NCBI GenBank assembly: GCA_025774545.1
Contig: JALGVU010000006.1
Span: 1-32,444, forward strand
Direction of reading: 5' to 3'
Length of the DNA: 32,444 bases
DNA from: a bacterium
GTDB lineage: Bacteria > Joyebacterota > Joyebacteria > Joyebacterales > Joyebacteraceae
Made by a program: the position numbers and the translations under genes. This document shows positions 8,009 to 30,107 of this stretch, one piece after another. Within the stretch, counting starts at the first letter, position 1, and each line of letters begins with the position of its first letter. A model generated the notes under the pieces. That model worked only from the letters and a program-made list of their open reading frames with translations, ran no database searches and was not told the DNA's origin.

Positions 8009-8030
8009 ACGTGCCGTCGTCGTGGCACGT
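8009..8030 (+). promoter_or_regulatory. Stem-loop in the gcvT 5' leader
   Basis: ACGTGCC (8009-8015) and GGCACGT (8024-8030) form a perfect 7-bp stem around GTCGTCGT. It lies between the predicted start of transcription and the ribosome site AAGGAGG (8063-8069). It is not an obvious terminator, as no T-run follows, and I do not see the tandem architecture of a glycine riboswitch. Confidence 0.45.
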
Positions 8031-8078
8031 CTCGGATCGGCGCGCGGGTCGCCCGGGGTCACAAGGAGGACGGAGTTC

Positions 8079-9188: not shown

Positions 9189-9274
9189 CGGGCTTGAAGG
9201 GCGCCCCGGCGCCCGACGCCCGAGAGCGACGGACGGAAGATCCACGACACGAGGACAGGAGAGCGAGGTTCGAG

Positions 9275-9652: not shown

Positions 9653-9654
9653 CC

Positions 9655-11010: not shown

Positions 11011-12503
11011 GCACGGCGACCACGAAGCTCGAGAGGCCGCACGAGCCCACGCTCTTCGAGCAGGGCTCACCGGGCCGCCGCGGGTTCCGGCTGCCGCCTC
11101 TCGACGTGCCGACGATCGACCTCGCCCGAGCGATCGGTCCCGAGCATCTGCGGAACGAGCCACCCGATCTCCCGGAGCTCGCCGAGTCCGAGGTCGTCCG
11201 ACACTTCAGCCGCCTGGCCGAGCTCAACCACCACGTCGACCGGGCCATCTACCCGCTCGGCTCGTGCACGATGAAGTACAACCCCGCCGTGAACGAGGAG
11301 GCGGCGTCGCTCCCGGGCTTCACCGATCTCCATCCGGAGGCCGACGCGCGCCACGCGCAGGGCTCGATCGCGCTCCTGTATCACCTCGGGCGCCACCTCG
11401 CCGAGATCTCCGGCATGGACGCCGTCAGCCTCCAGCCGCCGGCGGGCGCGTCCGGCGAACTCGCGGGCATGCTCGTCGTGCGCGCGTACCACGCCGACCG
11501 CGGCAGGCAGCGACGCAAGGTGATCGTGCCGGACTCCGCGCACGGGACCAACCCCGCGAGCGTTCGGCTCGCCGGGTACGAGGCCGTCGAGATCGTCTCG
11601 AACGCTCAAGGGAGGGTCGACGTCGACGAGCTTCGCCGCGTCGTCGACGGAGACACGGCTGCGATCATGATTACGAACCCGAACACGCTCGGCGTGTTCG
11701 AGACGAGGATCCGCGAGATCGTGGACATCGTTCACGAGGCGGGAGGCCTCGTCTACCTCGACGGGGCGAACCTGAATGCCTCGCTCGGGATCGTGCGCCC
11801 CGGCGACGCCGGCTGCGACCTCATGCACATGAATCTCCACAAGACGTTCTCGACGCCGCACGGCGGCGGCGGTCCCGGCTCGGGGCCGCTCGGCGTGAAG
11901 GAGCACCTCGCCGACTACCTGCCGTTCCCCGTCGCGGCGCGCGACGAATCGAAGGCCGTCGGCTTCGAGTACTACTTCGATTACGAGAGGCCGAGATCGA
12001 TCGGCAGGGTCCACACGGCCTACGGGAACTTCCTCGTCGCGGTGAAGGCCTACGCATACATCCTGACGCTCGGGCCCGAGGGACTCCGGAGGGTCGCGGA
12101 GAACGCGATCCTGAACGCGAACTACCTCCAGGCGCTCCTGGAGCCTTTCTACGATCTCCCGTACGCGGGGCGCTGCCAGCACGAGTTCGTGCTCGCAGCA
12201 ACGAGGCAGAAGGCAGGTACCGGGGTCCGCGCCCTCGACATTGCGAAGCGGCTCCTCGACCACGGGCTTCACGCTCCGACGATCTACTTCCCGCTCATCG
12301 TCAAGGAGGCTCTCATGATCGAGCCGACCGAGACGGAGAGCAGGGCGTCGCTCGATCGGTTCGCCGCGGTCATGAAGGAGATCGCCAGGGAGGCGATCGA
12401 GGAACCCGCGGTCGTGACGGGCGCGCCGACGGCGACTCCCGTAGGTAGACTCGACGAGTCCCGGGCGGCGAAGGAACTCGACGTTGTGTGGGAGAACGGC
12501 TAA
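11007..12503 (+). CDS. gcvPB: Glycine dehydrogenase (decarboxylating) subunit 2
   Basis: 498 aa from ATG 11007, which overlaps the gcvPA stop (ATGA). It is the PLP-binding half of the split P protein. 'LGSCTMKYNPAVNEE' and 'SLQPPAGASGELAGML' are typical, and 'DSAHGTNPAS' lies near the cofactor. The PLP Schiff-base lysine is Lys279 in 'NLHKTFSTPHGGGGPG'. The C-terminal 'APTIYFPLIVKEALMIEPTE' and 'TPVGRLDESRAAKELDV' match the family end. GcvL (dihydrolipoyl dehydrogenase) is not adjacent and must come from elsewhere. The following gene begins 3 nt after this stop, so the operon seems to continue into genes unrelated to glycine metabolism. Confidence 0.96.
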   Translation: MSTATTKLERPHEPTLFEQGSPGRRGFRLPPLDVPTIDLARAIGPEHLRNEPPDLPELAESEVVRHFSRLAELNHHVDRAIYPLGSCTMKYNPAVNEEAASLPGFTDLHPEADARHAQGSIALLYHLGRHLAEISGMDAVSLQPPAGASGELAGMLVVRAYHADRGRQRRKVIVPDSAHGTNPASVRLAGYEAVEIVSNAQGRVDVDELRRVVDGDTAAIMITNPNTLGVFETRIREIVDIVHEAGGLVYLDGANLNASLGIVRPGDAGCDLMHMNLHKTFSTPHGGGGPGSGPLGVKEHLADYLPFPVAARDESKAVGFEYYFDYERPRSIGRVHTAYGNFLVAVKAYAYILTLGPEGLRRVAENAILNANYLQALLEPFYDLPYAGRCQHEFVLAATRQKAGTGVRALDIAKRLLDHGLHAPTIYFPLIVKEALMIEPTETESRASLDRFAAVMKEIAREAIEEPAVVTGAPTATPVGRLDESRAAKELDVVWENG

Positions 12504-12506
12504 CGC

Positions 12507-12977
12507 GTGACGAGCCTGACGTGGACGGCATGGCCGATGCTCCGGAGCCCGGCGAGGGCCGCCCTCGCGATCGTGTTCATGCTGTTGGTCGGCTGGACCC
12601 TCCAGAGCCTCTTCCACACCGGCCTCTTCACGATCGCCGCCGTCCTCCTCGTCTGGGGCCAGGTCGCGAGCTTCTTCATCCCGACGACCTACACCCTGAC
12701 CGAGAACGGCGTCAAGGTTAAGGGGCTCGTGAACAGGAGGGAGAAGGACTGGAGCGACTTCAGAACCTACCTCGTCGATCGGAACGGCGTCCTCCTGTCG
12801 CCGTTCGTCGAGCGCACGCGGCTCGAGCGGTTTCGAGGGCTGTCGCTTCAGTTTCACGGGAATCGCGACGAGGTGGTCGCGTACGTCGAGAGGATTCTGG
12901 GAGGGCGCGAGGGTGACGAGCTCGATGTGGGCGATGAGGGACAAGAAGAAGGCGGAGGAGCGCCGGGAGGACCATGA
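12507..12977 (+). CDS. Small membrane protein with PH-like domain
   Basis: 156 aa, GTG start 3 nt after the gcvPB stop. Two hydrophobic segments (about 17-32 and 38-57) form a hairpin, followed by a beta-rich soluble part 'TYTLTENGVKVKGLVNRR' then 'KDWSDFRTYLVDRNGVLL'. This order resembles bacterial PH-like (bPH/YcxB-type) membrane proteins, in which the domain faces the cytoplasm. The last 25 residues are Gly/Glu-rich and low in complexity, lying where the next gene overlaps by 65 nt. Function unknown. Tight packing suggests co-expression with gcvPB and the ATPase genes downstream. Confidence 0.7.
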   Translation: MTSLTWTAWPMLRSPARAALAIVFMLLVGWTLQSLFHTGLFTIAAVLLVWGQVASFFIPTTYTLTENGVKVKGLVNRREKDWSDFRTYLVDRNGVLLSPFVERTRLERFRGLSLQFHGNRDEVVAYVERILGGREGDELDVGDEGQEEGGGAPGGP

Positions 12978-13395
12978 GAAGCTCATGGACGAGTTTGCGC
13001 GGAAGGTCGTCGAGCGGAGGATGACGGCGCCCGCGCTCCTCTTCCTCGAGTCGGTCAAGCCGCTCTCGTTCCTGGGGAACCAGGCCCTGGTCTTCTTCCA
13101 GCCGATCGTGCAGTCGATCTACACCTTCAAGAGCTACGACGAGATCACCGAGATCCTGGAGGACCGCGAGAACCTCGAGTACCTGCTTCGCAAGATCGAG
13201 GCTCTCGAGGCGGAGCGCCAGAAGGAAGAGAGAGAAGAGAAGATGCGGCGACGCGAAGCCAAGCGCGCCGCGAAGGCACGGAAGGCGAGTTCGGCCGAGG
13301 AAGGCGGGGAGACCGCCGCCGACGAGCCCGCCGAGGGCGCAGGGGGGGAGTCCGGTGAAGGCGCCCGGAGCGATCCCAAGGAAGGTACCGAATGA
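12913..13395 (+). CDS. Small charged protein of unknown function, upstream of GlmL-type ATPase
   Basis: 160 aa if GTG 12913 is used (GGGAGG about 8 nt upstream); an in-frame ATG at 12985 would remove the 65-nt overlap with the previous gene and leave 136 aa. The middle (about 37-75) is hydrophobic and amphipathic: 'TAPALLFLESVKPLSFLGNQ' then 'ALVFFQPIVQSIYTF', which may lie on or in the membrane. It is followed by a Glu/Lys/Arg-rich coiled-coil stretch (about 78-125) and an acidic low-complexity tail. The stop overlaps the next start (ATGA). I do not recognise a named family. Its position between a membrane protein and an ASKHA ATPase suggests an adaptor role. Confidence 0.7.
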   Translation: MTSSMWAMRDKKKAEERREDHEKLMDEFARKVVERRMTAPALLFLESVKPLSFLGNQALVFFQPIVQSIYTFKSYDEITEILEDRENLEYLLRKIEALEAERQKEEREEKMRRREAKRAAKARKASSAEEGGETAADEPAEGAGGESGEGARSDPKEGTE

Positions 13396-15194
13396 GCGAG
13401 AATGGGAAGATCAGGGCCATCGTGGCGACCGACTGCGGGAGCACGACGACGAAGGCGATCCTGATCAAGCTTGTCGATGGAGAGTACCGACTGATCGTGC
13501 GCGGCGAGGCCCCCACGACCGTCGAGGCTCCGTTCGAGGACGTGACGAGGGGCGTGCTGAACGCCATCAGGGAGGTGGAGGAGCTTTCGGGGCACGAGGT
13601 TCTCGACGGGGAGAAGATCATCCATCCGAACGACGGCGATCGAGGTGTCGATCTCTACCTCTCGACGTCGAGCGCGGGCGGCGGCCTTCAGATGATGGTC
13701 GCCGGGGTCGTGCAGAGCATGACCGCGGAGAGCGCGCAGCGCGCGGCCTTGGGCGCCGGGTCGATCGTGATGGACGTCCTGGCCTCGAACGACGGGAGGC
13801 TCCCGCATCAGAAGATCGAGCGGATCCGCCACCTCCGGCCCGACATGATCCTCCTGTCGGGCGGCATCGACGGCGGGACGATCACGCACGTCGTCGAGCT
13901 CGGGCAGATCATTGCGGCCGCCGATCCGAAGCCGCGTCTGGGGACAGGGTACCGGCTGCCCGTGATCTACGCGGGGAACGTCGACGCGCGCGGCGAGGTC
14001 GAGAACATGCTCGGCGACAAGACGGCGCTCTCTCTGGTCGACAACCTGCGACCGATCCTCGAGCGCGAGAACTTGGGTCCCGCCAGGGACAAGATCCACG
14101 ACCTCTTCATGGAACACGTGATGGCGCAGGCGCCCGGGTACAACAAGCTCATGGGCTGGACCGACGCGCCGATCATGCCGACGCCCGGAGCGGTCGGGTC
14201 GATCATCGAGACGATCGCGAACCGCCAGGGAATCGAGGTCGTGGGCGTCGACATCGGCGGCGCCACGACCGACGTCTTCTCGGTCTTCCGGAAGACCTTC
14301 AACCGGACCGTCTCGGCGAACCTCGGCATGAGCTACTCGGTCTCGAACGTTCTGGCCGAGGCCGGGATCGAGAACGTCATGCGCTGGGTCCCGTTCGATC
14401 TTCCGGAGCTGGGGGTGAGGAACCGCATCAAGAACAAGATGATCCGCCCGACTACGGTGCCGCAATCGCTGAGCGATCTGAAGCTCGAGCAGGCGATCGC
14501 GCGCGAGGCGTTGAGGCTCGCTTTCGAGCAGCACAAGTCGTTCGCCGTCGGCCTCAAGGGGGTGCAGCAGGAGCGCACGATCTCGGACGCCTTCAGCCAG
14601 TCGGCGTCGGGGGAGACGCTCGTCAACATGATGGACCTGAACCTGCTCGTCGGGTCGGGCGGCGCGCTCTCGCACGCTCCGCGCCGTCAGCAGGCGGCCA
14701 TGATGCTCATCGACGGCTTCCTCCCCGAGGGCGTCACGAGGCTCGCCGTCGATTCCATCTTCATGATGCCGCAGCTCGGCGTCCTCGCCGAGGTCCACGA
14801 GAAGGCGGCGACCGAGGTCTTCGAGAAGGACTGCCTGATCCACCTGGGCACGCTCGTCGCGCCCGTCGGCACGGGGCCCGAGGGGAAGCCGTGCGTCAGG
14901 ATCGAGGTGAGGCTCCCCGACGGCACGGCCGTCGACGAGGAGATCCCCTTCGGCAACATGCGGGTCTACCCGCTCGGGGTCGGCGAGACCGCGGAGCTCA
15001 AGGCGACGCCCGCGAGGGGCTTCGACGTCGGGGCCGGCCCGGGCAAGGTGGTCGAGCGGAAGGTCGCGGGCGGCGTGGTCGGCCTCATGATCGACGCCCG
15101 CGGGCGGCCCTTCACCCTTCCGACCGACGAGAAGGCGCGGGTCGCGAAGCTCGAGAAGTGGGCGGCGGCGTTCGACGCCTACCCCGCGGGGTGA
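13392..15194 (+). CDS. GlmL/MutL-type ASKHA ATPase
   Basis: 600 aa. The N-terminus 'TDCGSTTTKAILI' (phosphate-1 loop, 13-25) and 'VGVDIGGATTDVFSVF' (phosphate-2 loop, about 284-299) show an ASKHA (actin/Hsp70/hexokinase) ATPase. 'YLSTSSAGGGLQMMVAG', 'LLSGGIDGGTITHVVELGQI' and 'VIYAGNVDARGEV' match proteins annotated as glutamate mutase accessory protein GlmL/MutL, a family thought to reactivate B12 mutases. No glutamate or methylmalonyl-CoA mutase subunit is nearby; instead the gene lies between small membrane-associated proteins and a duplicated membrane-protein cassette. It may therefore serve those, not a mutase. ATG overlaps the previous stop by 4 nt. Family assignment is strong; the role is open. 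Confidence 0.85.
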   Translation: MSENGKIRAIVATDCGSTTTKAILIKLVDGEYRLIVRGEAPTTVEAPFEDVTRGVLNAIREVEELSGHEVLDGEKIIHPNDGDRGVDLYLSTSSAGGGLQMMVAGVVQSMTAESAQRAALGAGSIVMDVLASNDGRLPHQKIERIRHLRPDMILLSGGIDGGTITHVVELGQIIAAADPKPRLGTGYRLPVIYAGNVDARGEVENMLGDKTALSLVDNLRPILERENLGPARDKIHDLFMEHVMAQAPGYNKLMGWTDAPIMPTPGAVGSIIETIANRQGIEVVGVDIGGATTDVFSVFRKTFNRTVSANLGMSYSVSNVLAEAGIENVMRWVPFDLPELGVRNRIKNKMIRPTTVPQSLSDLKLEQAIAREALRLAFEQHKSFAVGLKGVQQERTISDAFSQSASGETLVNMMDLNLLVGSGGALSHAPRRQQAAMMLIDGFLPEGVTRLAVDSIFMMPQLGVLAEVHEKAATEVFEKDCLIHLGTLVAPVGTGPEGKPCVRIEVRLPDGTAVDEEIPFGNMRVYPLGVGETAELKATPARGFDVGAGPGKVVERKVAGGVVGLMIDARGRPFTLPTDEKARVAKLEKWAAAFDAYPAG

Positions 15195-15279: not shown

Positions 15280-16407
15280 ATGGCACACGCATACACACCG
15301 GGGCTCAGGGTCGCCGAGCTGACCGTCCTCCGAAAGGAGCGACGGCTGCCGATCAAGGGCGAGGTCCTCGTTCAGAAGGGCGACCACGTGAGCTCCGACA
15401 CGATCGTCGCCAGGACGCACCTTCCGGGGAACGTCCGGCTCGAGAACGTGGCGAGCAGGCTTGGCATTCCGCCCGAGGACCTGCCGTCCGTCATGGTCAA
15501 GAAGGAGGGCGATCCGATCGCGAAGGGCGAGGCGATCGCTCAGACCAAGGGTTTCTTCGGCCTCTTCAAGTCGTCCGTCCCGTCGCCCTGCGAGGGCACG
15601 GTCGAGAGCATCTCGACGGTGACCGGACAGGTCATTCTGCGGGAGCCCCCGACACCGATCCAGATCGACGCGTATGTCGACGGCGTGGTGGTGGAGGTCC
15701 TCGAGGGCGAGGGGGTCGCGGTCGAGATGGTCGGGACGTTCATCCAGGGCATCTTCGGCGTCGGGGGCGAGAGGACCGGTGACATCGTCGTGGCCGTCGC
15801 CTCGCCCGACGAGCCGCTCGTCGCCGAGCGGATCGACGCGTCGATGAAGGGGAAGATCGTCGTCGGCGGATCCCACGTGACGTGGGACGGGCTCCAGAAG
15901 GCCATGGAGGTGGAGGCGGCCGGCGTGGTCGTCGGCGGGTTCGACGATCCCGATCTCAGGAGGCTCCTTGGGAAGGACCTCGGTGTTGCGATCACCGGCC
16001 ACGAGGATCTCAAGACGACGCTCGTGCTCACCGAGGGCTTCGGAGAGATCGCGATGGCGGGAGGCACGTTCGACCTCCTGAAGAAGCGCGAGGGCAGGAA
16101 GGCGTCGATCAACGGCGCGACGCAGATCAGGGCGGGCGTCATCCGTCCGGAGATCGTGGTCCCGATTCCCGAGGAGCGCGACAGCGTCCGCGAGGAGGGC
16201 TCCGGGCACGTCATGGGCCTCGAGAGCGGGAGCCTCATCCGCGTCATCCGCGAGCCGCACTTCGGCCACCTGGGCACGGTGACCGATCTTCCGAACGAGC
16301 TCCAGATGATGGAGTCGGAATCGATGGTGCGGGTCCTGAAGGTCCGCTTCGAGGACGGCAGCGAGTCGCTGCTCCCGCGGGCGAACGTGGAGATGATAGA
16401 GAAGTAG
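15280..16407 (+). CDS. Barrel-sandwich hybrid / KOW-like protein of unknown function
   Basis: 375 aa, ATG with GAGGAGA about 7 nt upstream. Residues about 20-60 and 75-125 look like two halves of a biotinyl/lipoyl-like barrel-sandwich fold, as in RnfC and NqrA: 'PIKGEVLVQKGDHVSSDTIV', then 'VKKEGDPIAKGEAIAQ', then 'SPCEGTVESISTVTGQVIL'. There is no lipoyl- or biotinyl-lysine motif. The centre (about 180-290) looks alpha/beta with Gly-rich turns: 'GVVVGGFDDPDLRRLLGKD', 'GVAITGHEDLKTTLVLTEG', 'EIAMAGGTFDLLKKREG'. The end, 'FGHLGTVTDLP' followed by 'VRFEDGSESLLPRANVEMI', resembles a KOW/SH3-like small barrel. No signal peptide or TM segment is seen, so it is probably cytoplasmic. It lies between the ATPase and the membrane cassettes, which suggests a partner of one or both. 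No named family recognised with certainty. Confidence 0.75.
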   Translation: MAHAYTPGLRVAELTVLRKERRLPIKGEVLVQKGDHVSSDTIVARTHLPGNVRLENVASRLGIPPEDLPSVMVKKEGDPIAKGEAIAQTKGFFGLFKSSVPSPCEGTVESISTVTGQVILREPPTPIQIDAYVDGVVVEVLEGEGVAVEMVGTFIQGIFGVGGERTGDIVVAVASPDEPLVAERIDASMKGKIVVGGSHVTWDGLQKAMEVEAAGVVVGGFDDPDLRRLLGKDLGVAITGHEDLKTTLVLTEGFGEIAMAGGTFDLLKKREGRKASINGATQIRAGVIRPEIVVPIPEERDSVREEGSGHVMGLESGSLIRVIREPHFGHLGTVTDLPNELQMMESESMVRVLKVRFEDGSESLLPRANVEMIEK

Positions 16408-16677: not shown

Positions 16678-17928
16678 ATGGGGCACGACAGAGGGCGCTT
16701 GCGCGGGGCGCGCTTTGTGACGGGGTTCGTTGCCGGTACGCTTGCGGCGGCGGCCCTCGTTGTTTGTGCCGCCACGCTCTCGGCGCAGGAACCCATCGAG
16801 CCCGCGGTTCCGGAGTCGCTCGCGGCGCCTGAGCTCCTCGCGGTCCCCACGGGCGTTCAGGTTGAGGACACCCCCAACGACCGCGGCGCCTCCGTCAACG
16901 TCACGTGGGAGCTCTCCGCGGACGACGAGAGCCTGCGGTTCGAGGGCTACCGCGTCTACCGGTCGGCGCACCCCGAGACGGGATTCGTTTTCGCCGGACG
17001 GGCCGGGAGGGGAGCGACCACATACCGCGACAGCGAGGCGCCGAACAACGAGCCCGTCTACTACCGTGTGGCCGTCGGCGACGCCGAGGGCGGAGAGGCC
17101 TTCTCCGCCACGTCTGACGCCGTGACGGCTTCCCCTCAGTGGTTCAACGACGACCGCGTCAACGTCCTGATCGCCGTCTTCATCTTCGTCGTGGCGATCG
17201 TCTACTTCGTCAACGCCGCGCGCGGCGGCAAGGAGCTCTTCATCCGGCGTCTGGCCGGGCTCGACGAGGTCGACAACGCGGTCGGGCGCGCCACCGAGAT
17301 GGGGAAACCGATCCTCTACATCTCGGGGCTCTCGACGATCTCGGACGTCGCGACGATCGCGGCCATCAACATCCTGGGCGAGGTCGCGAAGAGAACCGCC
17401 GAGTACAACACACGCCTCATCGTCCCGTGCGCCGACCCGATCGTCATGGCCGTCGAGCAGGAGGTCGTGAAGGAGGCGTACGCGAAGGTCGGCCGGCCCG
17501 ATTCCTACAACGAGGACGACGTCTTCTACCTCACGAGAAGCCAGTTCGCCTACGTGGCCGGCGTCAACGGCATCATGGTCCGCCAGCGCCCGGCGACGAT
17601 TCTCTACATGGGCATGTTCTTCGCGGAGTCGCTCGTGCTCGCAGAGACCGGCGCTTCGGTCGGGGCGATTCAGATCGCCGGGACCGACGCCGTGACGCAG
17701 CTACCGTTCTTCATCACGTCCTGCGACTACACGCTGATCGGCGAAGAGCTCTACGCCGCGAGCGCGTATCTCTCGAGGGAGCCGGTGCTCCTGGGTGGGC
17801 TCAAGGGGCAGGACACGCTCAAGTTCATCATTGGGGTCCTGATTGTCATCACCGTCATCGTCGCGACGCTCGCGGCGACGGGCGCGATCTCGAACGACTT
17901 CATGACGCCGCTCTTCATCACGCACTAG
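16678..17928 (+). CDS. A1: FN3 + DUF6754-like membrane protein
   Basis: 416 aa from ATG 16678, with GGGAGAG about 5 nt upstream. Signal-like segment (about 12-37, ending near SAQ), an FN3 module (about 52-150: 'VPTGVQVEDTP', 'FEGYRVYRSAHPE', 'PVYYRVAVGD'), a TM helix (about 161-180), a soluble domain (about 181-380) and a second TM helix (about 383-405). The soluble domain, with 'AVGRATEMGKPILYISGL', 'VVKEAYAKVGRPDSYN', 'SCDYTLIGEELYAASAYLS' and 'LLGGLKG', recalls the uncharacterised family I know as DUF6754. By topology FN3 faces outward and the conserved domain faces the cytoplasm. About 60% identical to A2 over this domain by eye. First gene of an eight-gene run. Function unknown. Confidence 0.85.
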   Translation: MGHDRGRLRGARFVTGFVAGTLAAAALVVCAATLSAQEPIEPAVPESLAAPELLAVPTGVQVEDTPNDRGASVNVTWELSADDESLRFEGYRVYRSAHPETGFVFAGRAGRGATTYRDSEAPNNEPVYYRVAVGDAEGGEAFSATSDAVTASPQWFNDDRVNVLIAVFIFVVAIVYFVNAARGGKELFIRRLAGLDEVDNAVGRATEMGKPILYISGLSTISDVATIAAINILGEVAKRTAEYNTRLIVPCADPIVMAVEQEVVKEAYAKVGRPDSYNEDDVFYLTRSQFAYVAGVNGIMVRQRPATILYMGMFFAESLVLAETGASVGAIQIAGTDAVTQLPFFITSCDYTLIGEELYAASAYLSREPVLLGGLKGQDTLKFIIGVLIVITVIVATLAATGAISNDFMTPLFITH

Positions 17929-17958
17929 CGGCCGCGGGGTTCGGAGGGTTTCAACAGG

Positions 17959-18588
17959 ATGCGTCGTCAATTACCGTTGGCACTCTGTTTCATCTTCGGC
18001 GTCTTCACTGCGATCCAGTACTACGTCCCTCACTTCCGCGTGCAGTGGTTCCAGGAGCGCCTCCTCCAGTGGCTCATGACGCTCCTCGCGTTCGCGTTCC
18101 TCCTCGGGACCGTCAGCCTCATCAAGGTCCACTATCACAAGCTCAGAGACAGGGCGCCCGACCGCGGCTTCAGCCTCGTCGTGTTCGCCGGGCTCTTCAC
18201 GATGATAGGGCTCGGGTTCATCCACCCGGATCACCACGCTCCGGGTTCGCCCTTCAACCAGATGTTCCTGAACGTCCAGGTGCCGATCGAGGCGACGATG
18301 TTCTCGCTCCTGGCGTTCTACGTCGCCTCGGCGGCCTTCAGGGCGTTCCGCGCCCGGACGCTCGAGGCGACCCTGCTCCTGATCGCCGCGGCGATCGTGA
18401 TGCTCGGCAGGGTTCCGATCGGCGATCTCATCAGTCCGAAGATTCCCGAGGCGACGCGCTGGATCCTCGAGGTGCCCAATCTCACGGCGAAGCGGGGTGT
18501 CATGATCGGCGTCGGTCTCGGCATGATGGCGACGGCGCTCAAGATCATGCTCGGGATCGAGCGGGCGTGGATGGGCGGCAGCGACTAG
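17959..18588 (+). CDS. B1: polytopic membrane protein of unknown function
   Basis: 209 aa with about six hydrophobic segments (near 5-22, 35-55, 70-88, 105-125, 132-150, 175-197). Conserved with B2: 'YYVPH' after the first helix, 'FNQMFLNVQVPIEATMFSLL' (B2: FNWMFHYMQVPLQSTMFSLL), 'SAAFRAFR', 'LLLIAAAIVMLGRVPIG' and the C-terminal 'GIERAWMGG'. The loop containing 'HPDHHAPGS' holds several His and could bind metal, but B2 lacks it, so this is weak. No recognised family. Thirty nt separate it from A1, and it is followed by C1 after 46 nt. Probably an integral subunit of a complex with A, C and D. Confidence 0.85.
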   Translation: MRRQLPLALCFIFGVFTAIQYYVPHFRVQWFQERLLQWLMTLLAFAFLLGTVSLIKVHYHKLRDRAPDRGFSLVVFAGLFTMIGLGFIHPDHHAPGSPFNQMFLNVQVPIEATMFSLLAFYVASAAFRAFRARTLEATLLLIAAAIVMLGRVPIGDLISPKIPEATRWILEVPNLTAKRGVMIGVGLGMMATALKIMLGIERAWMGGSD

Positions 18589-18634
18589 CGGCGATTGCAT
18601 CGATGAGCGCGGGCGTCCGCGCTCGGAGGCGGAG

Positions 18635-19483
18635 ATGAGCTGGTACGACTGGCTTCTTGGGATCGACAGGCGGTGGATCTTCCTGACCATCGCTATTGCC
18701 GTCGTGATTCCCTTCTTCGCTCCGCTGGGCCTGCCGGTCGTCGTGACGCCGCCGGTCCAGAACCTCTACGACGCCGTCGAGGCGCTCGAACCCGATGGAA
18801 AACCGCTCCTCCTCTCGATCGATTACACGCCGGCGACGTCGCCGGAGCTCGAGCCGATGTCGTCGGGGGTCCTTCGGCACGCCTTCAGGAAGGACATCCC
18901 CGTCATCGTCATGACGCTCCATCCGGCCGGCTACGGCATGGCCGAGAGCGCGATCCTCGCGGCCGCCGAGGAGTTCGGCAAGGAGTACGGCGAGGACTAC
19001 GTGTTCCTTGGTTTCCAGCCGGGCACGTCGGCCGTGATCCTCGGGCTCGGCGTGAACATCAGGACCGTCTTTCCGGAGGACGCCTACGGCACGCCGCTCT
19101 CGGAGCTGCCGGTGATGGAGGGGATCCGGAACTACGACGACGTCTCTCTTCTCATAACGTTCGCGGGGTGGTCCGCCGCCGAGGCGTGGATCTACTACGC
19201 GCACCAGCCGTCCGGGCAGATCGTCGGGGCAGGCGTGACCGCCGTCATGGCGACCGACTACTACCCGTACCTCGACGCGGGCCAGCTCGTGGGGCTCCTG
19301 GGCGGGATGCGCGGCGCGGCCGAATACGAACGACTGATCGACCGGCCCGACGCGGGAGCGCGCGGCATGGACTCCCAGTCGGTCATTCATCTGATCATCA
19401 TTCTTCTCATCGTGCTCGGGAACGCGGCCTACTTCGCGTCGAGGCGCGCGAGGCGGCTGGCCCAGGCTCGAGGGGAGATCTAG
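18635..19483 (+). CDS. C1: membrane-anchored protein with extracytoplasmic alpha/beta domain
   Basis: 282 aa, ATG with GGAGGCGGAG just upstream. An N-terminal TM (about 14-34) follows 'IDRRW' and a C-terminal TM (about 252-270) precedes 'SRRARRLAQARG', so by the positive-inside rule both ends are cytoplasmic and the 210-residue domain is outside. The domain alternates strands and helices: 'PPVQNLYDAVEAL', 'LLLSIDYTP', 'LRHAFRKDIPVIVMTLHP', 'EEFGKEYGEDYVFLGF'. It ends with the strongest motif 'YPYLDAGQLVGLLGGMRG' then AAEYE, shared with C2. No catalytic residues are assigned. The 'LLGG(L/M)(K/R)G' motif also occurs in A1 and A2. No named family recognised. Confidence 0.85.
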   Translation: MSWYDWLLGIDRRWIFLTIAIAVVIPFFAPLGLPVVVTPPVQNLYDAVEALEPDGKPLLLSIDYTPATSPELEPMSSGVLRHAFRKDIPVIVMTLHPAGYGMAESAILAAAEEFGKEYGEDYVFLGFQPGTSAVILGLGVNIRTVFPEDAYGTPLSELPVMEGIRNYDDVSLLITFAGWSAAEAWIYYAHQPSGQIVGAGVTAVMATDYYPYLDAGQLVGLLGGMRGAAEYERLIDRPDAGARGMDSQSVIHLIIILLIVLGNAAYFASRRARRLAQARGEI

Positions 19484-19544
19484 GCATCGGGGGGCCCCGC
19501 GGAGGCGGGCGGTCCCCGCGAGAGTCTGACTCGGAGGACGAGGT

Positions 19545-20384
19545 TTGACGACGCTTCTCTTGGCAACGGTGGGGGCGATCCTGACGCTCTGCGTCTACAG
19601 CTTCCTCTACAAGGACAACCCGTTCTACAAGTTCGCCGAGCACCTCGTCGTCGGCGTCTCCGCCGGGTACTACCTGGTCATCTACACCTTCAACTTCATC
19701 GTCCCGAACGTGACCGACCCGGTCTTCACGCTCAATCTCGGAGGCGAGGCGATCCGCCTCGGAGGCCTCGACTGGTGGATGGCCCTGGCCCCTGGGCTCC
19801 TGGGGCTTCTCCTCTACACGCGCTTTTTCCCGAAGATCGCGTGGATCGGCCGCTGGCCGCTCGGCATCTACGTCGGGGGCTACGCGGGCCTCGGCATCTC
19901 GCCCGTGATGCAGGCGCGCGTGATCAACCAGCTTCGCGCCGGCGCGACGCCGCTCGCGGGCACGCCGGACCCCTTCGCCAACATGACGAACGTGTGCTTG
20001 GGCCTCGTGATCTTCATCGCCGTGACGTATCTCCTCCTGGTGAAGCGGCAGCTCGGCGCGCGGAACACGGGCGCGAAGGTCGGCATCGTCGCGCTCGCAG
20101 CGTTGGTGGGCTACGGGGGCTACGTCGCTCTCTCCGCCCTCTCGGGTGCCGGCGTCGTGAACCTGACGAACGTCATGCTCGTCGTTGGGCTCCTGGGCAC
20201 GCTCACGTACTTCTTCTTCTCGATGCGGCACACCGGGGTCTTGGGCGTGCTCGCGCGGATCGGCATCGTCTTCCTCATGGTCGGATTCGGCGCGTCGTTC
20301 GGCTACACCGTGATGTCCCGTATCTCGCTCCTGATCGGCAGGGTGGGTTTCCTCATCGACTGGGTCGGGATGTTCTTCTCGTAG
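19545..20384 (+). CDS. D1: polytopic membrane protein of unknown function
   Basis: 279 aa from TTG 19545, chosen because GGAGGACGAGG ends just upstream and no ATG or GTG precedes the first helix. About seven TM segments. The N-terminal signature 'YSFLYKDNPFYKFAEHLVVG' is nearly identical in D2, as are 'RFFPKI', 'YFFFSM' and the end 'LMVGFGASFGYTVMSRISLL'. A loop of about 35 residues (about 117-150, 'QARVINQLRAGATPLAGTPD') makes it longer than D2 (227 aa). A 67-nt block near the start matches D2 at 66 positions. Closes cassette 1; A2 starts 80 nt downstream. Confidence 0.85.
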   Translation: MTTLLLATVGAILTLCVYSFLYKDNPFYKFAEHLVVGVSAGYYLVIYTFNFIVPNVTDPVFTLNLGGEAIRLGGLDWWMALAPGLLGLLLYTRFFPKIAWIGRWPLGIYVGGYAGLGISPVMQARVINQLRAGATPLAGTPDPFANMTNVCLGLVIFIAVTYLLLVKRQLGARNTGAKVGIVALAALVGYGGYVALSALSGAGVVNLTNVMLVVGLLGTLTYFFFSMRHTGVLGVLARIGIVFLMVGFGASFGYTVMSRISLLIGRVGFLIDWVGMFFS

Positions 20385-20464
20385 GCTGGTGAACCTGGTG
20401 GACCGACCGCCGCCCGCGGGGCGGCCGAGGGGAGCGAAGGGCGTCCCCTCTTTTCTCGTCACGG

Positions 20465-21694
20465 ATGCGCGGTACGACGATGAGATCACACTTCACGATC
20501 ATCGCGGCGCTCGCGATCCTCGCGACCCTGGCCCCGGCGCCGGCAGCGGCCCAGGAGGCGGGGGATCTCGAGACGGTCCTGCCCGACACGATCCCGCTCG
20601 ACACGACGCCACCCGCTCCGGTCACCGGCCTCACGGTCCGCGACTACGTCGACAACGACGACGACGGCACCAAGATCGAGCTCGCCTGGACGCCGTCGCC
20701 CGACGACGGCGCCGGCGCGGCCGACGTCCTCGCCTACCACGTCTGGCGCTCGACGACGGCCGGCGTCGTTGGCGACTCCGTGGGCGTCGCGGGCGCCGGG
20801 AGCGCGACCTTCCTCGACGAGACGGCGGTCCCCGGCACCGACTACCACTACGGCGTCACGGCCTTCGACGGCACGTCGCACTCGGCCCCGGCCACGGCAG
20901 GGCCCGTGAGGGGCGTCCGCAACTGGTTCGCCGTCTCGCGCACCGCGGTGCTCGTGCTGGCCGTCGTCTTCTTCGCGCTCGTTCTCGCCTTCACGCAGCT
21001 GGCCGAGCGGGGCGCCGAGCTCTTCGTTCGCCGGATTCCGGGTTTGAACGCGATCGAGGAGGCGGTCGGTCGCGCGACCGAGATGGGAAGGCCGGTCCTC
21101 TACGTCCCCGGGATCGGTGAGATCGACAACATCATGACGATCGCGTCCTTGACGATCCTCTCGCACGTGGCGAAGATCACTGCCCGGTACGAGACTCCGC
21201 TCATCGTCCCGACGGCGCGAGCGGTCGTGATGTCTGCCGCCGAGGAGGTCGTCAAGGAGGCCTACGCCGAGGCGGGGCATCCCGACTCCTACAACCGCGA
21301 CAACATCCGGTACCTCTCGGACGCGCAGTTCGCGTTCGCGGGGGCCGTGAACGGCATCATGCTGAGGGAGAAGCCGGCCGCGAACCTCTACCTGGGCGCC
21401 TTCTGGGCCGAATCGCTTCTCCTCGCGGAGACCGGTTTCGAGGCAGGCGCCATCCAGGTGGCCGGCACGGCCATGGTCTCGCAGCTCCCGTTCTTCGTGA
21501 CCGCCTGCGACTACACGCTCCTGGGCGAGGAACTCTACGCCGCCAGCGCGTATCTCTCCCGCGAGCCGAAACTTCTGGGTGGGCTCAAGGGCTCCGACTG
21601 GATGAAGGTCGTCACCATCGCCCTCGTCGTCCTCGGGATCATCCTGAACGCAGTGGGTGTCGAGTCGTTCGCCGAGTGGTTCCACACGAGCTGA
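20465..21694 (+). CDS. A2: FN3 + DUF6754-like membrane protein, paralog of A1
   Basis: 409 aa from ATG 20465; a second in-frame ATG at 20480 gives a cleaner signal peptide ('MRSHFTIIAALAILATLAP', cleavage near AAAQ) and may be the real start, as neither has a strong ribosome site. FN3 module about 48-150 ('PPAPVTGLTV', 'LAYHVWRSTTAG', 'DYHYGVTAFDG'), TM about 159-178, conserved domain about 180-380, C-terminal TM about 384-402. Conserved with A1: 'AVGRATEMGRPVLYVPGIG', 'EEVVKEAYAEAGHPDSYN', 'ACDYTLLGEELYAASAYLS', LLGGLKG. The FN3 carries an acidic 'DYVDNDDDGTK' loop that could bind calcium; A1 lacks it. The extracytoplasmic part has diverged more than the cytoplasmic domain. Confidence 0.85.
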   Translation: MRGTTMRSHFTIIAALAILATLAPAPAAAQEAGDLETVLPDTIPLDTTPPAPVTGLTVRDYVDNDDDGTKIELAWTPSPDDGAGAADVLAYHVWRSTTAGVVGDSVGVAGAGSATFLDETAVPGTDYHYGVTAFDGTSHSAPATAGPVRGVRNWFAVSRTAVLVLAVVFFALVLAFTQLAERGAELFVRRIPGLNAIEEAVGRATEMGRPVLYVPGIGEIDNIMTIASLTILSHVAKITARYETPLIVPTARAVVMSAAEEVVKEAYAEAGHPDSYNRDNIRYLSDAQFAFAGAVNGIMLREKPAANLYLGAFWAESLLLAETGFEAGAIQVAGTAMVSQLPFFVTACDYTLLGEELYAASAYLSREPKLLGGLKGSDWMKVVTIALVVLGIILNAVGVESFAEWFHTS

Positions 21695-21707
21695 TCGGAA
21701 CGGTTCC

Positions 21708-22382
21708 ATGAGAAGAGAGATTCCGCTCGCGATCACCTTCTTGATCGGCCTCTTCATGATCGTCGATTTCTTCGTGCCCCACACCGCCGTCACGCTGAGG
21801 GCGGACGAGCTGAAGCAGTGGGGCATCATCGTGATTGCGGCCTCGATCCTCCTCGGGATCGGAAACCTCGTTCGCGTCCATTCGAAGAAGATCGCGCGCA
21901 GGAACGAGGGGTGGGGGTACAGCATCATCACGCTCGCGGTCATGGCCGCGATGCTGTGGCTCGGGCTCTGGCCCGGGGCGCATCTGGGTCCGAGCGAGGC
22001 GATCGGGGCCGTCGAGGAGGGGACACCCTTCAACTGGATGTTCCACTACATGCAGGTTCCTCTCCAGAGCACGATGTTCTCGCTCCTCGCGTTCTTCATC
22101 GCCTCCGCCGCCTACCGCGCGTTCCGGCTGCGGTCGGCCGAGGCGAGCCTGCTTCTGATCGCGGCGATCATCGTCATGCTCGGGCGCGTGCCGCTCGGGC
22201 AGTTACTGACGAGGAACCTCCCCGAGAAGGCGACGCTGCCGTGGATCACGGAGACGATCATGGCGTACCCGAACATGGCGGCCTTCCGCGGCATCCTCAT
22301 GGGCGCGGCCCTCGGCGTGATGGCGATGGGGCTCCGCATCATCCTCGGAATCGAGCGGTCCTACCTGGGTGGGGAGAAGTAG
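21708..22382 (+). CDS. B2: polytopic membrane protein, paralog of B1
   Basis: 224 aa from ATG 21708; a longer in-frame start at 21657 would overlap A2 and add non-hydrophobic residues, so it was rejected. About six TM segments in the same places as B1, with matching 'QVPLQSTMFSLLAFFIASAA', 'YRAFRLRSAEASLLLIAA' and 'IVMLGRVPLGQLL', and ending 'LGIERSYLGG'. A slightly longer loop, 'LGPSEAIGAVEEGTPFNW', replaces the His-rich loop of B1. C2 begins 3 nt after the stop, so the two are probably translationally coupled. Confidence 0.85.
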   Translation: MRREIPLAITFLIGLFMIVDFFVPHTAVTLRADELKQWGIIVIAASILLGIGNLVRVHSKKIARRNEGWGYSIITLAVMAAMLWLGLWPGAHLGPSEAIGAVEEGTPFNWMFHYMQVPLQSTMFSLLAFFIASAAYRAFRLRSAEASLLLIAAIIVMLGRVPLGQLLTRNLPEKATLPWITETIMAYPNMAAFRGILMGAALGVMAMGLRIILGIERSYLGGEK

Positions 22383-22385
22383 CCG

Positions 22386-23228
22386 ATGGCGAAGGGCTTC
22401 GACATCCAGCGCATCGATCGCCGGATCATCTTCGTGCTGGTACTCGTGGCCGTCGTGATCCCGCTCATCGTGCCGCTGGGGCTTCCGATCGACGTGTCGC
22501 CGCCGGTCCAGTCGCTCTACGACACCGTCGACGCGCTCCCTCCGGGGACGATCGTCATGCTGGCCGGCGACTACAGCCCGGACACGGTTCCCGAGCTGCA
22601 GCCGATGACGCTCGCGTTCCTGCGCCACGCCTTCAAGAACGACCTCCGCGTCGTCGTGGCGTGCCTCTGGCCGGCGTCGCCGCCGCTCGTCGAGGCGGCC
22701 CTGACGCCGCTCGCCGAGGAGTTCGGCAAGGAGTACGGCGTCGACTTCGTGAACCTCGGCTACATGACGGGCGGCCCCGTCACGATCCTCGGCATGGGCA
22801 ACAGCATCACGAAGACGTTTCCGAGCGACTACTACGGCACGTCCGTGGGCGAGATCCCGCTCATGGACGAGGTCGGCAGTCTCGCCGACGTCGCCCTCGT
22901 GATGGAGGTCTCGGCCGGGACGCCGGGCACGCGGGAGTGGGTCCAGCAGGCCGTGAGCCGGTTCAGCGTCACGCTCGGATCGGGCACGACGGCCGTCGGC
23001 GCCCCGAACTTCTATCCGTACGTGTCGAGCGGTCAGCTGGTCGGGCTCCTGGGGGGCTTGAAGGGCGCGGCCGAGTACGAGACGCTGGTCGGGATGCCGG
23101 CCGACGCGACGAAGGGCATGGACGCGCAGTCGATCGTCCACGCGCTCATCGTCGTCTTCATTCTGATCGGCAACGTCGCCTACTTCCTGAGCAAGCGCCC
23201 CGGGCGGGCGCCCGCTCAGGAAGCCTAG
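22386..23228 (+). CDS. C2: membrane-anchored protein with extracytoplasmic domain, paralog of C1
   Basis: 280 aa, almost the same length as C1. TM about 14-34 after 'RIDRR' and TM about 250-268 before 'SKRPGRAP' give the same predicted topology, with the central domain outside. Shared marks: 'PPVQSLYDTVDALPPG', 'LRHAFKNDLRVVVACLWP', 'EEFGKEYGVDFVNLGYM', 'TFPSDYYGT', 'YPYVSSGQLVGLLGGLKG' then AAEYE. The LLGG motif sits at exactly the same residue number as in C1 (Val219 precedes it in both). Packed between B2 (3 nt) and D2 (12 nt). Confidence 0.85.
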   Translation: MAKGFDIQRIDRRIIFVLVLVAVVIPLIVPLGLPIDVSPPVQSLYDTVDALPPGTIVMLAGDYSPDTVPELQPMTLAFLRHAFKNDLRVVVACLWPASPPLVEAALTPLAEEFGKEYGVDFVNLGYMTGGPVTILGMGNSITKTFPSDYYGTSVGEIPLMDEVGSLADVALVMEVSAGTPGTREWVQQAVSRFSVTLGSGTTAVGAPNFYPYVSSGQLVGLLGGLKGAAEYETLVGMPADATKGMDAQSIVHALIVVFILIGNVAYFLSKRPGRAPAQEA

Positions 23229-23240
23229 TGGGGTATTGAG

Positions 23241-23924
23241 ATGAGCTGGCTCGAGGCCTTCTTCACGGGTGCTGAGGGGACGTCGGCGTCGCTGGTGTGG
23301 GGCTACTGGGTCGCGGCGATCCTGACGCTCTGCATCTACAGCTTCCTCTACAAGGACAACCCGTTCTACAAGTTCGCCGAGAGCCTCTTCGTCGGCATCG
23401 GGGCCGCGTACTGGCTCGCGATGATCTATCACAACACCCTGAAGCCCAAGCTCTTCATTCCCCTGTTCCCGGGCGATTCCGGCGAGCCCTTCCTCTGGTA
23501 CAGGATCTTCCCCGGCATCCTCGCCGTCTTCATGCTGCTCCGTTTCTTCCCGAAGCTCTCGTGGCTCTCGAGGTGGGCCCTCGCGTTCATCGTCGGCATG
23601 TACGCGGCCGTCAACCTCACGGGCTTCGCGCAGGCCGACTTCGTGGAACAGATCCACGCGACGATGAGGACGCCGCTCGCGGGAGGTGGACCGCTGGCCC
23701 TCATCCTCAATCTGATCGCGATCATCGGCGTCATCTCGGTTCTCATCTACTTCTTCTTCTCGAAGGAGCACAAGGGCGCGCTCGGGGCCGGAGCCAAGGT
23801 CGGCATCTGGTTCCTCATGGTGGCCTTCGGAGCGTCCTTCGGGTACACGGTCATGGGCCGCGTGTCCCTTCTGATCGGGAGAATGACCTTCCTCCTGAGA
23901 GACTGGCTGCACGTGATCGACTGA
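23241..23924 (+). CDS. D2: polytopic membrane protein, paralog of D1
   Basis: 227 aa; ATG with a weak upstream purine site. About six to seven TM segments. Shares with D1 the signature 'YSFLYKDNPFYKFAESLFVG', 'RFFPKLSWLSRW', 'YFFFSKEHKGALGAGAKVGI' and 'LMVAFGASFGYTVMGRVSLL'. It has a longer N-terminus (about 25 residues, 'MSWLEAFFTGAEGTSASLVW') but lacks most of the central loop of D1. The stop codon lies inside a 16-bp palindrome. Last gene of the duplicated set. Confidence 0.85.
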   Translation: MSWLEAFFTGAEGTSASLVWGYWVAAILTLCIYSFLYKDNPFYKFAESLFVGIGAAYWLAMIYHNTLKPKLFIPLFPGDSGEPFLWYRIFPGILAVFMLLRFFPKLSWLSRWALAFIVGMYAAVNLTGFAQADFVEQIHATMRTPLAGGGPLALILNLIAIIGVISVLIYFFFSKEHKGALGAGAKVGIWFLMVAFGASFGYTVMGRVSLLIGRMTFLLRDWLHVID

Positions 23925-24019: not shown

Positions 24020-24817
24020 ATGGATTGGCGTTTCCTGGATACCGGGAAGGCCGACGGTGCGACAAACATGGGCCTCGACGAGGCGCTCCTTCAGGGGGTC
24101 GCCCGGGGAGACGCGCCCCCGACGGTCCGCGTCTACGCCTGGGAGCCGCCCACCGTCTCGATCGGACACTCGCAGCGGGCGGGCGACGAGCTCGACCTCG
24201 CTGCGGTCGCCCGGGCCGGCTTCGGGGTGGTGCGCCGGCCGACCGGCGGGCGGGCGGTCCTGCACGCGGGGGAGCTCACCTACTCCGTCGCGGGCCGCGC
24301 CGGCGAGCCGCCTCTCGGGAACACCATCATGGAATCGTACCGAGCCGTCGCCCTCGCTCTCGTGGCGGGGCTGGGCCCGCTCGGAGTCGAGGCGGACCTC
24401 GCTCAGCTCGCGGCGTCCCCCCGAGGGAGGGGAGGAGGGGCGAGTCCGCCCTGCTTCGTGAGCGCCGGCCGCTTCGAGATCGTCGCGGCGGGAAGAAAGC
24501 TGGTCGGGAGCGCGCAGCGGCGGACGGGAAACGCGGTCCTCCAGCACGGATCCCTCCTGATCGACGGGACCCACGCGCGGCTGGTCGACGTGCTCCGCCT
24601 CGACGACGAGGGTCGCCGTTCGCGCCTGCGCCGATTGCTCGCGGCGAAGACGACGGACCTCGAAACGGTCCTCGAACGCCCGGTCGCGTTCGACGAGGTC
24701 GCGCGCGCGATCCGGTCCGGATTCGAGATCGCGTGGGGCGTCGAGCTCGCTCTGGGCGCGCTCACGAGCGCTGAGATCGAAGCGTCGAATCGCCTCGCAA
24801 CTGAATACACAGTCTAG
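24020..24817 (+). CDS. Lipoyl/octanoyl transferase, LipM/LplA family
   Basis: 265 aa. ATG 24020 was chosen because the family begins at 'WRFLDTGKADGATNMGLDEA'. The BPL/LplA/LipB fold is shown by 'VRVYAWEPPTVSIGHSQ', the lipoate-binding 'RRPTGGRAVLHAGELTYS' (72-89) and 'GRKLVGSAQRR' with Lys160. 'PPCFVSAGRFEIV' places Cys145 where LipM octanoyltransferases have their catalytic cysteine, then 'LQHGSLLID' follows. That favours octanoyl transfer from ACP over ATP-dependent lipoate ligation. Its probable target is GcvH Lys62 encoded at 9275 and other lipoyl proteins. A short Gly/Arg-rich insert (about 133-142) precedes the Cys. It starts 95 nt after D2, so it may be read from the same transcript. 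Confidence 0.87.
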   Translation: MDWRFLDTGKADGATNMGLDEALLQGVARGDAPPTVRVYAWEPPTVSIGHSQRAGDELDLAAVARAGFGVVRRPTGGRAVLHAGELTYSVAGRAGEPPLGNTIMESYRAVALALVAGLGPLGVEADLAQLAASPRGRGGGASPPCFVSAGRFEIVAAGRKLVGSAQRRTGNAVLQHGSLLIDGTHARLVDVLRLDDEGRRSRLRRLLAAKTTDLETVLERPVAFDEVARAIRSGFEIAWGVELALGALTSAEIEASNRLATEYTV

Positions 24818-27801: not shown

Positions 27802-30048
27802 ATGACTCTTGGGAGTACGGGGAAGCGACACGACGGCGCTCCCGGACGGGCGGAGCGCTTTCTAGCAGGCGTGATCGTCGCCGCGGTCGTCGCGGCGCTC
27901 GTCGCAACCGTGGTCGGGGTCGCGCAGGCGAGGATGGACGCGTCCGACCGCGAGCGCTACGAGAACGCTCAGAACCTGCACAGGAACCGGATCTTCCAGT
28001 TCTTCGGCTGGTATCACAGCGTCGGTCAGCTCCTGCTTCACGTCTCCAACCTCGGGTACTTCGGGGACTGGGACGCGGATCTCGCGGCGCCGTCGGCCGA
28101 GTGGCCGGCCGGCAGCAACCACGAGTACCTCTACGCCGGTGGGTTGTGGGTCGGTGGGATCGTGAGGAACGACGTGACGGGCCTCCCCGACACGCTCGTG
28201 TCTGCGGCCGTCTACCAGCAGGAGTTCCGGCCCAATCCGGACGATCTCCTGGCGACGATCTACGAGGTGTGGGAGGGTGCGGCGAACAGCGGCAGGTTCG
28301 CTGACGACGACGGCGACTGCCTCGATCATCCGTTCGACGAGGAAGATCCGTTCAAGTGGTACGACGAGGATCCTCTCGACGGTATCGACAACGACGACGA
28401 CGGCTTGATCGATGAGGACTACGCCGCGATCTCGCAGCAGATGTACCGCATGGAGTACGAGGACACCTACGAGCAGGACGTCAACGAGAACGCTCAACCC
28501 GGCGACGAGCACTCGAGCCTGGGTCTCATGGTGATCCAGGAGAGCTACCAGTGGACGAGCGATCTCACGGACGACTTCGTCGGCATCGACTTCACGGTCG
28601 TCAACATCGGTGAGGACACCATCCGGATGGCCTACGTCGGCTTCATGGTCGACGCGGACGCCGGTCCTCACTCGGACGAGATCCTGAACTACATCGACGA
28701 TCGGGGCGGGTTCATCGACACGATGGTCGTGAGCGTGAATCCGAACGATCCCCTGGCGATCGACACGCTCCGGATGACGATCGCCTACATGTACGACGAT
28801 CCCTACGGCCAGGACGGCAACGTGGCCAAGGGGTACTTCGGCTGCATGTTCCTCGGTCACCCGACCAGCAACCCCGACACGCTCCATCCGGGTAACCTCC
28901 CCGGCGCGCCGACGAAGGTCAAGGTCCATTCGTTCGAGATCTGGTCGAGCGGCACCGAGGATCCCAACCACGACAGGGACCGGTACCGTTATCTGAGGGG
29001 TGCCGCGGACTACCCGCTGCGCGACGGCGTCGACAACGACTTCGACGGTGACATCGATGAAGAAGACGAGTGGCGCGTGAACATCGATCGCGACGCCGAC
29101 TCTCCCCAGGACTGGCGGTTCATGCTCTCAGCGGGCCCGTTCAGGAAGATCGTTCCGGGTGACACGCTCTCGTTCCAGTACGCGTTCGTGATCGGACAGG
29201 GCAAGGACGGCATGCTCGAGAACGCGGCGACCGCGCAGCAGATCTACAACGGTATCTGGCAGGAGGTCCCGAACTGCGTCGGCGAGCCGGAGAGCGTCCT
29301 GATCCACTGGGTCGCCGATACGCCGCCTCCGCCTCCGAATCAGGAGATCACCGCGGGCGACCGGTTCGTGCGGGTCGAGTGGGACGACTTCCCCGAGGAC
29401 GTGGAGGATCCCCTGACGAGGATCAGGGACTTCTACGGCTATCAGGTCTGGAAGGCCGTCGGCTGGACGCGCGACTCGAGCGAGCCGATGGACCAGGACT
29501 GGCAGCTCATTCTCGACATCGATCGGGGCCAGGGAGGCGCCGAGATCCAGGAGTGGGACACCGGGCTCTCGGGCATCGGCAAGTACTCCTTCGTCGACAC
29601 CCTGGTCAAGAACGGGTTCTCGTACTGGTACTCCGTGACGGCCTACGACAGCACCGCGGAGGGCTTCCACTTCGGCAAGTTCAGCCAGAGCAAGACCCTC
29701 GTGATCCCGACGTCGGCGGTGAACAAGCAGCTCGACGAGATCATCGTCGTCCCGAACCCATACGTGAACCACGAGTACGTGGCTCGGTGGAACCTGGCGC
29801 CCAACGAGGAAGATCCGACGGGCGAGAGGCTCTGCTTCCAGAACCTCCCTCGCGACTCGGTCGTCAGGGTCTACTCGCTGGGTGGTGAGCTCGTCACCAC
29901 GCTCCGCCCGTCGGCGGAGGAGACGGGCGGCGATGCGTGCTGGAACATGATCTCACGGAACGACCAGATCGTCGTGAGCGGCATCTATCTGTATCAGGTC
30001 GACTCGCCGGTCGGAGAGAAGATCGGCAAGTTCGTCGTCATCAAGTAA
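27802..30048 (+). CDS. Large secreted protein with calcium-loop motifs and FlgD-like C-terminal sorting domain
   Basis: 748 aa from ATG 27802, with GGAGG 6 nt upstream; an adjacent TTG at 27799 is less likely. A signal or anchor helix spans about 20-42. Two Asp-rich loops look like calcium-binding thrombospondin-3/EF-hand-like repeats: 'DGIDNDDDGLIDED' (about 193-206) and 'DGVDNDFDGDIDEED' (about 408-422). An FN3-like segment occurs at about 510-630 ('ITAGDRFVRVEWDDFPED', 'FYGYQVWKAVGW', 'YWYSVTAYDS'). The last 100 residues carry the sorting domain: 'VVPNPYVNHEY', 'RVYSLGGELVTTLRP', 'VSGIYLYQVDSPVGEK'. It lies between a TonB receptor and two PorV-like proteins, so it is a plausible exported cargo or surface partner. 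No enzyme motif recognised. Confidence 0.85.
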   Translation: MTLGSTGKRHDGAPGRAERFLAGVIVAAVVAALVATVVGVAQARMDASDRERYENAQNLHRNRIFQFFGWYHSVGQLLLHVSNLGYFGDWDADLAAPSAEWPAGSNHEYLYAGGLWVGGIVRNDVTGLPDTLVSAAVYQQEFRPNPDDLLATIYEVWEGAANSGRFADDDGDCLDHPFDEEDPFKWYDEDPLDGIDNDDDGLIDEDYAAISQQMYRMEYEDTYEQDVNENAQPGDEHSSLGLMVIQESYQWTSDLTDDFVGIDFTVVNIGEDTIRMAYVGFMVDADAGPHSDEILNYIDDRGGFIDTMVVSVNPNDPLAIDTLRMTIAYMYDDPYGQDGNVAKGYFGCMFLGHPTSNPDTLHPGNLPGAPTKVKVHSFEIWSSGTEDPNHDRDRYRYLRGAADYPLRDGVDNDFDGDIDEEDEWRVNIDRDADSPQDWRFMLSAGPFRKIVPGDTLSFQYAFVIGQGKDGMLENAATAQQIYNGIWQEVPNCVGEPESVLIHWVADTPPPPPNQEITAGDRFVRVEWDDFPEDVEDPLTRIRDFYGYQVWKAVGWTRDSSEPMDQDWQLILDIDRGQGGAEIQEWDTGLSGIGKYSFVDTLVKNGFSYWYSVTAYDSTAEGFHFGKFSQSKTLVIPTSAVNKQLDEIIVVPNPYVNHEYVARWNLAPNEEDPTGERLCFQNLPRDSVVRVYSLGGELVTTLRPSAEETGGDACWNMISRNDQIVVSGIYLYQVDSPVGEKIGKFVVIK

Positions 30049-30107
30049 GGCGGACTGCGTCGACGGGCGCCCCCGGACGGAGGCGAGCGGTGGAAGGAGG
30101 ACATTAC

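Follow-up and report, generated by a model that had tools for sequence, protein, structure and literature searches.

A doubled four-gene membrane cassette

The window analysed here is a stretch of 32,444 nucleotides (NCBI GenBank assembly GCA_025774545.1, contig JALGVU010000006.1) from a bacterium of the Joyebacteraceae, and is one complete contig (G000:C478) of a draft genome of 4.1 Mb in 512 contigs. At positions 16678-23924 it carries two head-to-tail sets of membrane protein genes, A1-B1-C1-D1 followed by A2-B2-C2-D2, all on the plus strand, with intergenic gaps of 3–80 bp across the eight genes and no further gene in between (Table 1). We describe this ABCD cassette together with the genes upstream of it, which on our best reading make up a system with seven or more genes; it appears to match no known machine and to be undescribed.

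The initial annotation had recognised four families occurring twice in the same order and orientation, as four pairs of clear paralogs, and both observations were confirmed by the open reading frames and their comparison: proteins of the first and second cassettes matched each other in phmmer with E-values of about 2e-98 (A), 5e-54 (B), 9e-81 (C) and 5e-50 (D) and are 45–47% identical over aligned columns. This genome has a third, diverged cassette (A3-D3) on a different contig (L026:617-4199, G000:C451); in relatives (e.g., L050), cassettes of this class come after a class-III aminotransferase gene. Judged by the A gene, the nearest relative in the genome collection is Candidatus Effluviviaceae Genus IV (L054), one of a few near relatives. 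Scanning for sigma-70 promoters and terminators gave no informative site.

What are the four proteins? DUF6754 (PF20539) was found at 403 bits (E 5e-121) in A1 and 390 bits (E 5e-117) in A2, against a gathering cut-off of 27, and the full domain is also present in A3, far over the cut-off. The DUF6754 part of the earlier description of A is borne out; its FN3 part is better called FN3-like, since the FN3 profile reached E-values of 0.044 in A2 and 0.0039 in a relative (L049), both under the Pfam cut-off. B, C and D gave no convincing Pfam family, even when 40–45 diverse members of each were scanned. The topologies in Table 1 were predicted from hydropathy and charge bias over 130–154 relatives; the N-terminus of B is predicted to lie inside, and the outside domain of C to be followed by a second transmembrane (TM) helix. 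AlphaFold2 models had mean pLDDT values of 93.9 (C2) and 93.2 (A2, last 300 residues). Searched against the PDB with Foldseek, the C and A models gave only generic Rossmann-like matches, with query-normalised TM-scores of at most about 0.36. The predicted order of strands and helices is similar in the A and C domains, yet hhalign gave a probability of about 1% and so no support for homology between them. Comparison of B with D did not support their being homologs either.

DUF6754 itself is uncharacterised: a search of the literature and the PDB found no function, solved structure or naming paper for it, and the paper on Effluviviacota mentions neither glutamate mutase, nor DUF, nor fibronectin. 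Its alignment contains about 14 near-invariant polar residues (R182, R196, E199, Q281, R294, E309, E315, Q324, Q333, C341, D342, E349, D371 and K374, alignment numbering). This is more than we would expect in a purely structural domain and is in line with a site for binding or catalysis. By sequence, the PDB held nothing meaningful for A, B, C, D or for the upstream proteins Rbar and MutL, and PADLOC profiles gave 0 matches for eight proteins, which lends no support to an anti-phage defence role. Consistent with the initial annotation, A–D thus matched no known complex in Pfam (DUF6754 only), in PDB searches by sequence (A–D) and by fold (A and C), in PADLOC or in the literature.

Table 1. Genes of the ABCD system and selected neighbours in the window.
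Feature	Position	Strand	Description
Glycine cleavage genes gcvT, H, PA, PB	8022-12503		Upstream of the system; assigned by eye
PH-like small membrane protein	12507..12977	+	Upstream gene in many, not all, loci (16 loci)
X2	12913..13395	+	Short protein with hydrophobic/amphipathic stretch; accompanies ABCD almost obligately in genomes
MutL	13392..15194	+	MutL-type ASKHA ATPase, long form, 600 aa; PF13941 E 5e-126, 422 bits (cut-off 27)
Rbar	15280..16407	+	Soluble; barrel-sandwich (RnfC/NqrA/lipoyl-like) part and C-terminal KOW-like part
A1	16678..17928	+	Predicted order: signal peptide, outside domain (FN3-like), TM, DUF6754 in the cytoplasm, TM
B1	17959..18588	+	Predicted six-TM membrane protein; no known family
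C1	18635..19483	+	Predicted TM-anchored alpha/beta domain, outside; no known family
D1	19545..20384	+	Predicted six-TM membrane protein; no known family
A2	20465..21694	+	A1 paralog, 45% identity
B2	21708..22382	+	B1 paralog, 47% identity
C2	22386..23228	+	C1 paralog, 47% identity
D2	23241..23924	+	D1 paralog, 45% identity
Lipoate-protein ligase	24020-24814		PF21948; downstream of the system
Two adjoining similar outer-membrane proteins	29937-31079, 31160-32143		PorV/PorQ-like by eye

Distribution, co-inheritance and age of the cassettes

Scanning a GTDB-based collection yielded at least 576 loci. The 80 that were kept belong to uncultivated bacteria known from draft genomes, including WOR-3/Stahlbacteria, Cloacimonadota, Zixibacteria, Fermentibacteria, Poribacteria, Edwardsbacteria, Latescibacterota, Coatesbacteria, Armatimonadota, Eisenbacteria and Mcinerneyibacteriota, and 122 complete cassettes were gathered from more than ten candidate phyla. 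DUF6754 was found in 0 of 14 well-known control genomes. The order A-B-C-D holds in essentially every locus (about 100 loci), many of them with tandem arrays; doubling, about which the initial annotation had asked, is frequent, and tripling is common too. Some loci depart from this plan. Six in Cloacimonadota (L087, L090, L091, L102, L107, L120) have a lone fifth gene, an A, directly after A-B-C-D; another (G139:C38:18271-24736) has one A, one B and one D with four C genes, the outside-domain subunit alone being expanded; and L142 (G111:C20) has a very divergent B-C-D set, in which no A is recognisable, with an unknown protein of 492 aa nearby, upstream.

We examined co-occurrence in 155 genomes from 135 families besides the window's own, a sample centred on the window's lineage and consisting mostly of drafts, in which single absences are weak evidence. 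A is present in 33 of these families; B, C and D accompany it in every one of them and are almost never found elsewhere (Fisher p ~1e-30), contrary to what would be seen if the four families occurred apart. The upstream genes follow the same pattern: full-length Rbar is found in 30 of the 33 and in no family without A; X2, present in 50 of the 155 genomes, occurs in 31 of these families and in a single further one, which lacks A but has D; and MutL occurs in 30 of the 33 as well as in six families that lack A, among them one (G105) with D and X2. In a complete genome (G154; L138-L141, L166), A with Rbar, B, C, D, MutL and X2 lie at separate places and all are kept. The suggestion that this was a candidate undescribed system is thereby strengthened, as no known complex was matched and the genes are inherited together in 33 other families.

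From the 122 complete cassettes, a separate tree was built for each of the four genes. All four trees recovered ten cassette classes as clades: the window's family has three, Zixibacteria-type arrays have three, Edwardsbacteria-type loci two and WOR-3 two. One class, Z1, is poorly supported in the B tree. Between-gene distances correlated at 0.74–0.86. Because each tree gives the same classes and the distances are correlated, the four genes can be said to descend together as a unit. The 45–47% identity of the two window cassettes is similar to that of cassettes from different phyla (41–50%); together with the shared classes, this indicates that the tandem copies are old separate lineages. The initial annotation was right that the cassette is present in two paralogous copies, and a recent tandem duplication was ruled out. 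Subunits do not mix between cassettes in the classes tested, which, with the age of the classes, supports its proposal that the second copy is a specialised version.

A probable upstream module common to several cassettes

X2, MutL, Rbar and the PH-like gene lie directly upstream of the cassettes in the window, and the same set is found in distant lineages; in one locus (L040) the order is X2-ABCD-MutL-Rbar. Whereas ABCD is present in one to six copies, X2, full-length Rbar and the long MutL each occur once in almost all genomes. These data support an extension of the system, missed by the initial annotation, upstream of ABCD to X2, MutL and Rbar, as a module common to several cassettes. The PH-like protein matched bPH_6 with an E-value of 0.027 in a relative (L048), under the cut-off, and X2 matched no Pfam family. 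In MutL, the motifs DxGSTTTK, DxGGATTD and GxGG are invariant, so ATP binding is likely. MutL and Rbar are linked by fusions, which form further branches of the MutL tree: in long proteins of about 750–1030 aa (G000:C274:174-2084, L134, L135, L136, L137), encoded away from ABCD, MutL and Rbar-like parts are joined.

Is this MutL the known partner of glutamate mutase? GlmL/MutL has been described as a reactivation chaperone of this coenzyme-B12 enzyme (PMC4682846), and the window protein belongs to the same family (PF13941) with its ASKHA nucleotide motifs intact. However, window-type MutL is about 100–150 residues longer than GlmL and is tied to Rbar, X2 and ABCD. PF06368 (glutamate mutase E) is absent from the window's genome and its family and from 32 of the 33 other ABCD families, and the remaining one has a separate MutL adjoining its mutase. 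Moreover, ABCD-linked MutLs separate in the tree from the short classical MutLs, which form their own clade. Service to glutamate mutase was ruled out on these grounds; the ABCD-linked long MutL is a subfamily of its own, distinct from GlmL.

Rbar is weakly similar to the N-terminal barrel-sandwich proteins RnfC and NqrA in its barrel-sandwich part (weak RnfC_N/Biotin_lipoyl matches, sub-threshold in the window protein; NQRA_N E 8e-8 in a distant relative). Unlike these subunits of Rnf and Na+-NQR, Rbar has middle and KOW-like regions of its own. No further Rnf or Nqr domain or subunit was detected, and A–D gave no Rnf or Nqr match.

Proposed function and its alternatives

What might such a machine do? 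Because of the co-inheritance and the copy numbers, we consider that A, B, C and D very probably have an obligate joint function and that MutL-Rbar-X2 is probably a service module shared by ABCD units. We tentatively favour the reading that diverged inner-membrane ABCD units and one shared ATPase/adaptor module perform transport or some other cross-membrane job on different substrates. Each unit would consist of A, B, C and D and contain some sixteen TM helices; outside the membrane would lie the alpha/beta domain of C and the FN3-like domain of A, and in the cytoplasm the highly conserved DUF6754 of A. C and the outside part of A would serve to recognise a ligand or partner, the membrane path would be made up of B and D, and the cytoplasmic domain of A would couple the unit to the common module. 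MutL-Rbar-X2 would then bind ATP and drive, load or reset whichever unit docks, different cassette classes handling different substrates. The analysis shows which genes are present and in what order, their co-inheritance, the copy number of the module, intact ATP motifs and the predicted topologies and folds; the physical complex, the use of ATP, the transport-like role and the substrate specialisation of the classes are inferred.

A working analogy is provided by the energy-coupling factor (ECF) transporters, in which one ATP-using module is common to several substrate-specific membrane components (PMC7755397, PMC4820897) and different S-components have been proposed to compete for it (PMC7755397). 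The likeness is one of arrangement, a single ATPase module shared by diverse units, and not of membership: the ATPase here is ASKHA-type, homology to EcfT or S-components is absent and no ABC ATPase match was found among A–D, Rbar, MutL, X2 and the PH-like protein. Transport in particular would be a somewhat doubtful assignment.

Several observations weigh against the favoured reading: (i) few charged residues lie within the TM helices of B and D, and a transport path is therefore not obvious; (ii) full Rbar and MutL are each missing in 3 of the 33 ABCD families, which could mean that the module is dispensable or replaced there, or that it was overlooked in drafts; (iii) the extra copies of A only (Cloacimonadota) or C only (G139) argue against a strict 1:1:1:1 ratio; and (iv) the flanking genes differ between lineages and point to no substrate. 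With regard to the third point, the fixed stoichiometry originally proposed has indirect support only.

The flanking genes are mostly housekeeping (gcv, PPDK, dehydrogenases); an aminotransferase and TonB/ExbBD also occur among them. A functional link to the upstream glycine cleavage genes was considered and judged a neighbour effect, the same cluster being present upstream in L082, L114 and L123 but not at most loci. A TonB-dependent receptor lies downstream in the window, and in four loci of two lineages (L105, L114, L122, L123) ExbB, two ExbD-like proteins, TonB and a TonB-dependent receptor are encoded beside the cassette.

Alternatively, MutL-Rbar-X2 could act as a chaperone for assembly, cofactor loading or reactivation, with ABCD as a membrane enzyme (e.g., for redox or group-transfer chemistry) whose classes carry out different reactions. 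This is the strongest of the alternatives, and we consider it unlikely. It has a precedent in the reactivation of glutamate mutase by GlmL/MutL, and a single helper set for several targets fits a maturation role; the resemblance of the Rbar barrel-sandwich to RnfC/NqrA N-terminal and biotin/lipoyl domains and the catalytic look of the conserved polar core of DUF6754 point the same way. However, A–D matched no family of the Rnf, Nqr, haem, flavin or Fe-S kind, and no lipoylated or biotinylated lysine motif was seen by eye in Rbar.

ABCD could also form a scaffold in the envelope or an apparatus for surface assembly or secretion; MutL would then be an actin-fold scaffold like PilM/FtsA, and the FN3-like A domains would dock to envelope partners. 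The FN3-like outside domain and the TonB-related neighbours would suit such an apparatus, but the lineage-specific, mostly housekeeping flanks and the lack of a conserved pilin, secretin or outer-membrane component make it improbable. Still more improbable is that ABCD represents some known transporter or complex in a form so divergent that current profiles miss it: B and D are variable TM proteins judged by sequence alone, for which profiles are weak, but neither the PDB sequence search nor the A and C models (mean pLDDT above 93) disclosed such a relative.

If the favoured reading is taken further, the system could, with due reserve, be a new class of membrane machine spread over more than ten uncultivated phyla, in which exchangeable ABCD units with domains on both membrane faces would be powered or reset by a shared ASKHA-type MutL-Rbar-X2 module, the old classes serving different substrates. 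About seven strictly co-inherited genes, of which a genome often carries several versions, are present in a quarter of the other families of our sample, a figure that describes this lineage-centred sample only; with no function assigned to them, they amount to a large gap in what is known about bacterial membranes. Should the module indeed be shared, an actin/Hsp70-fold ATPase would provide a new way to energise membrane units, and the MutL family would gain a role outside glutamate mutase.

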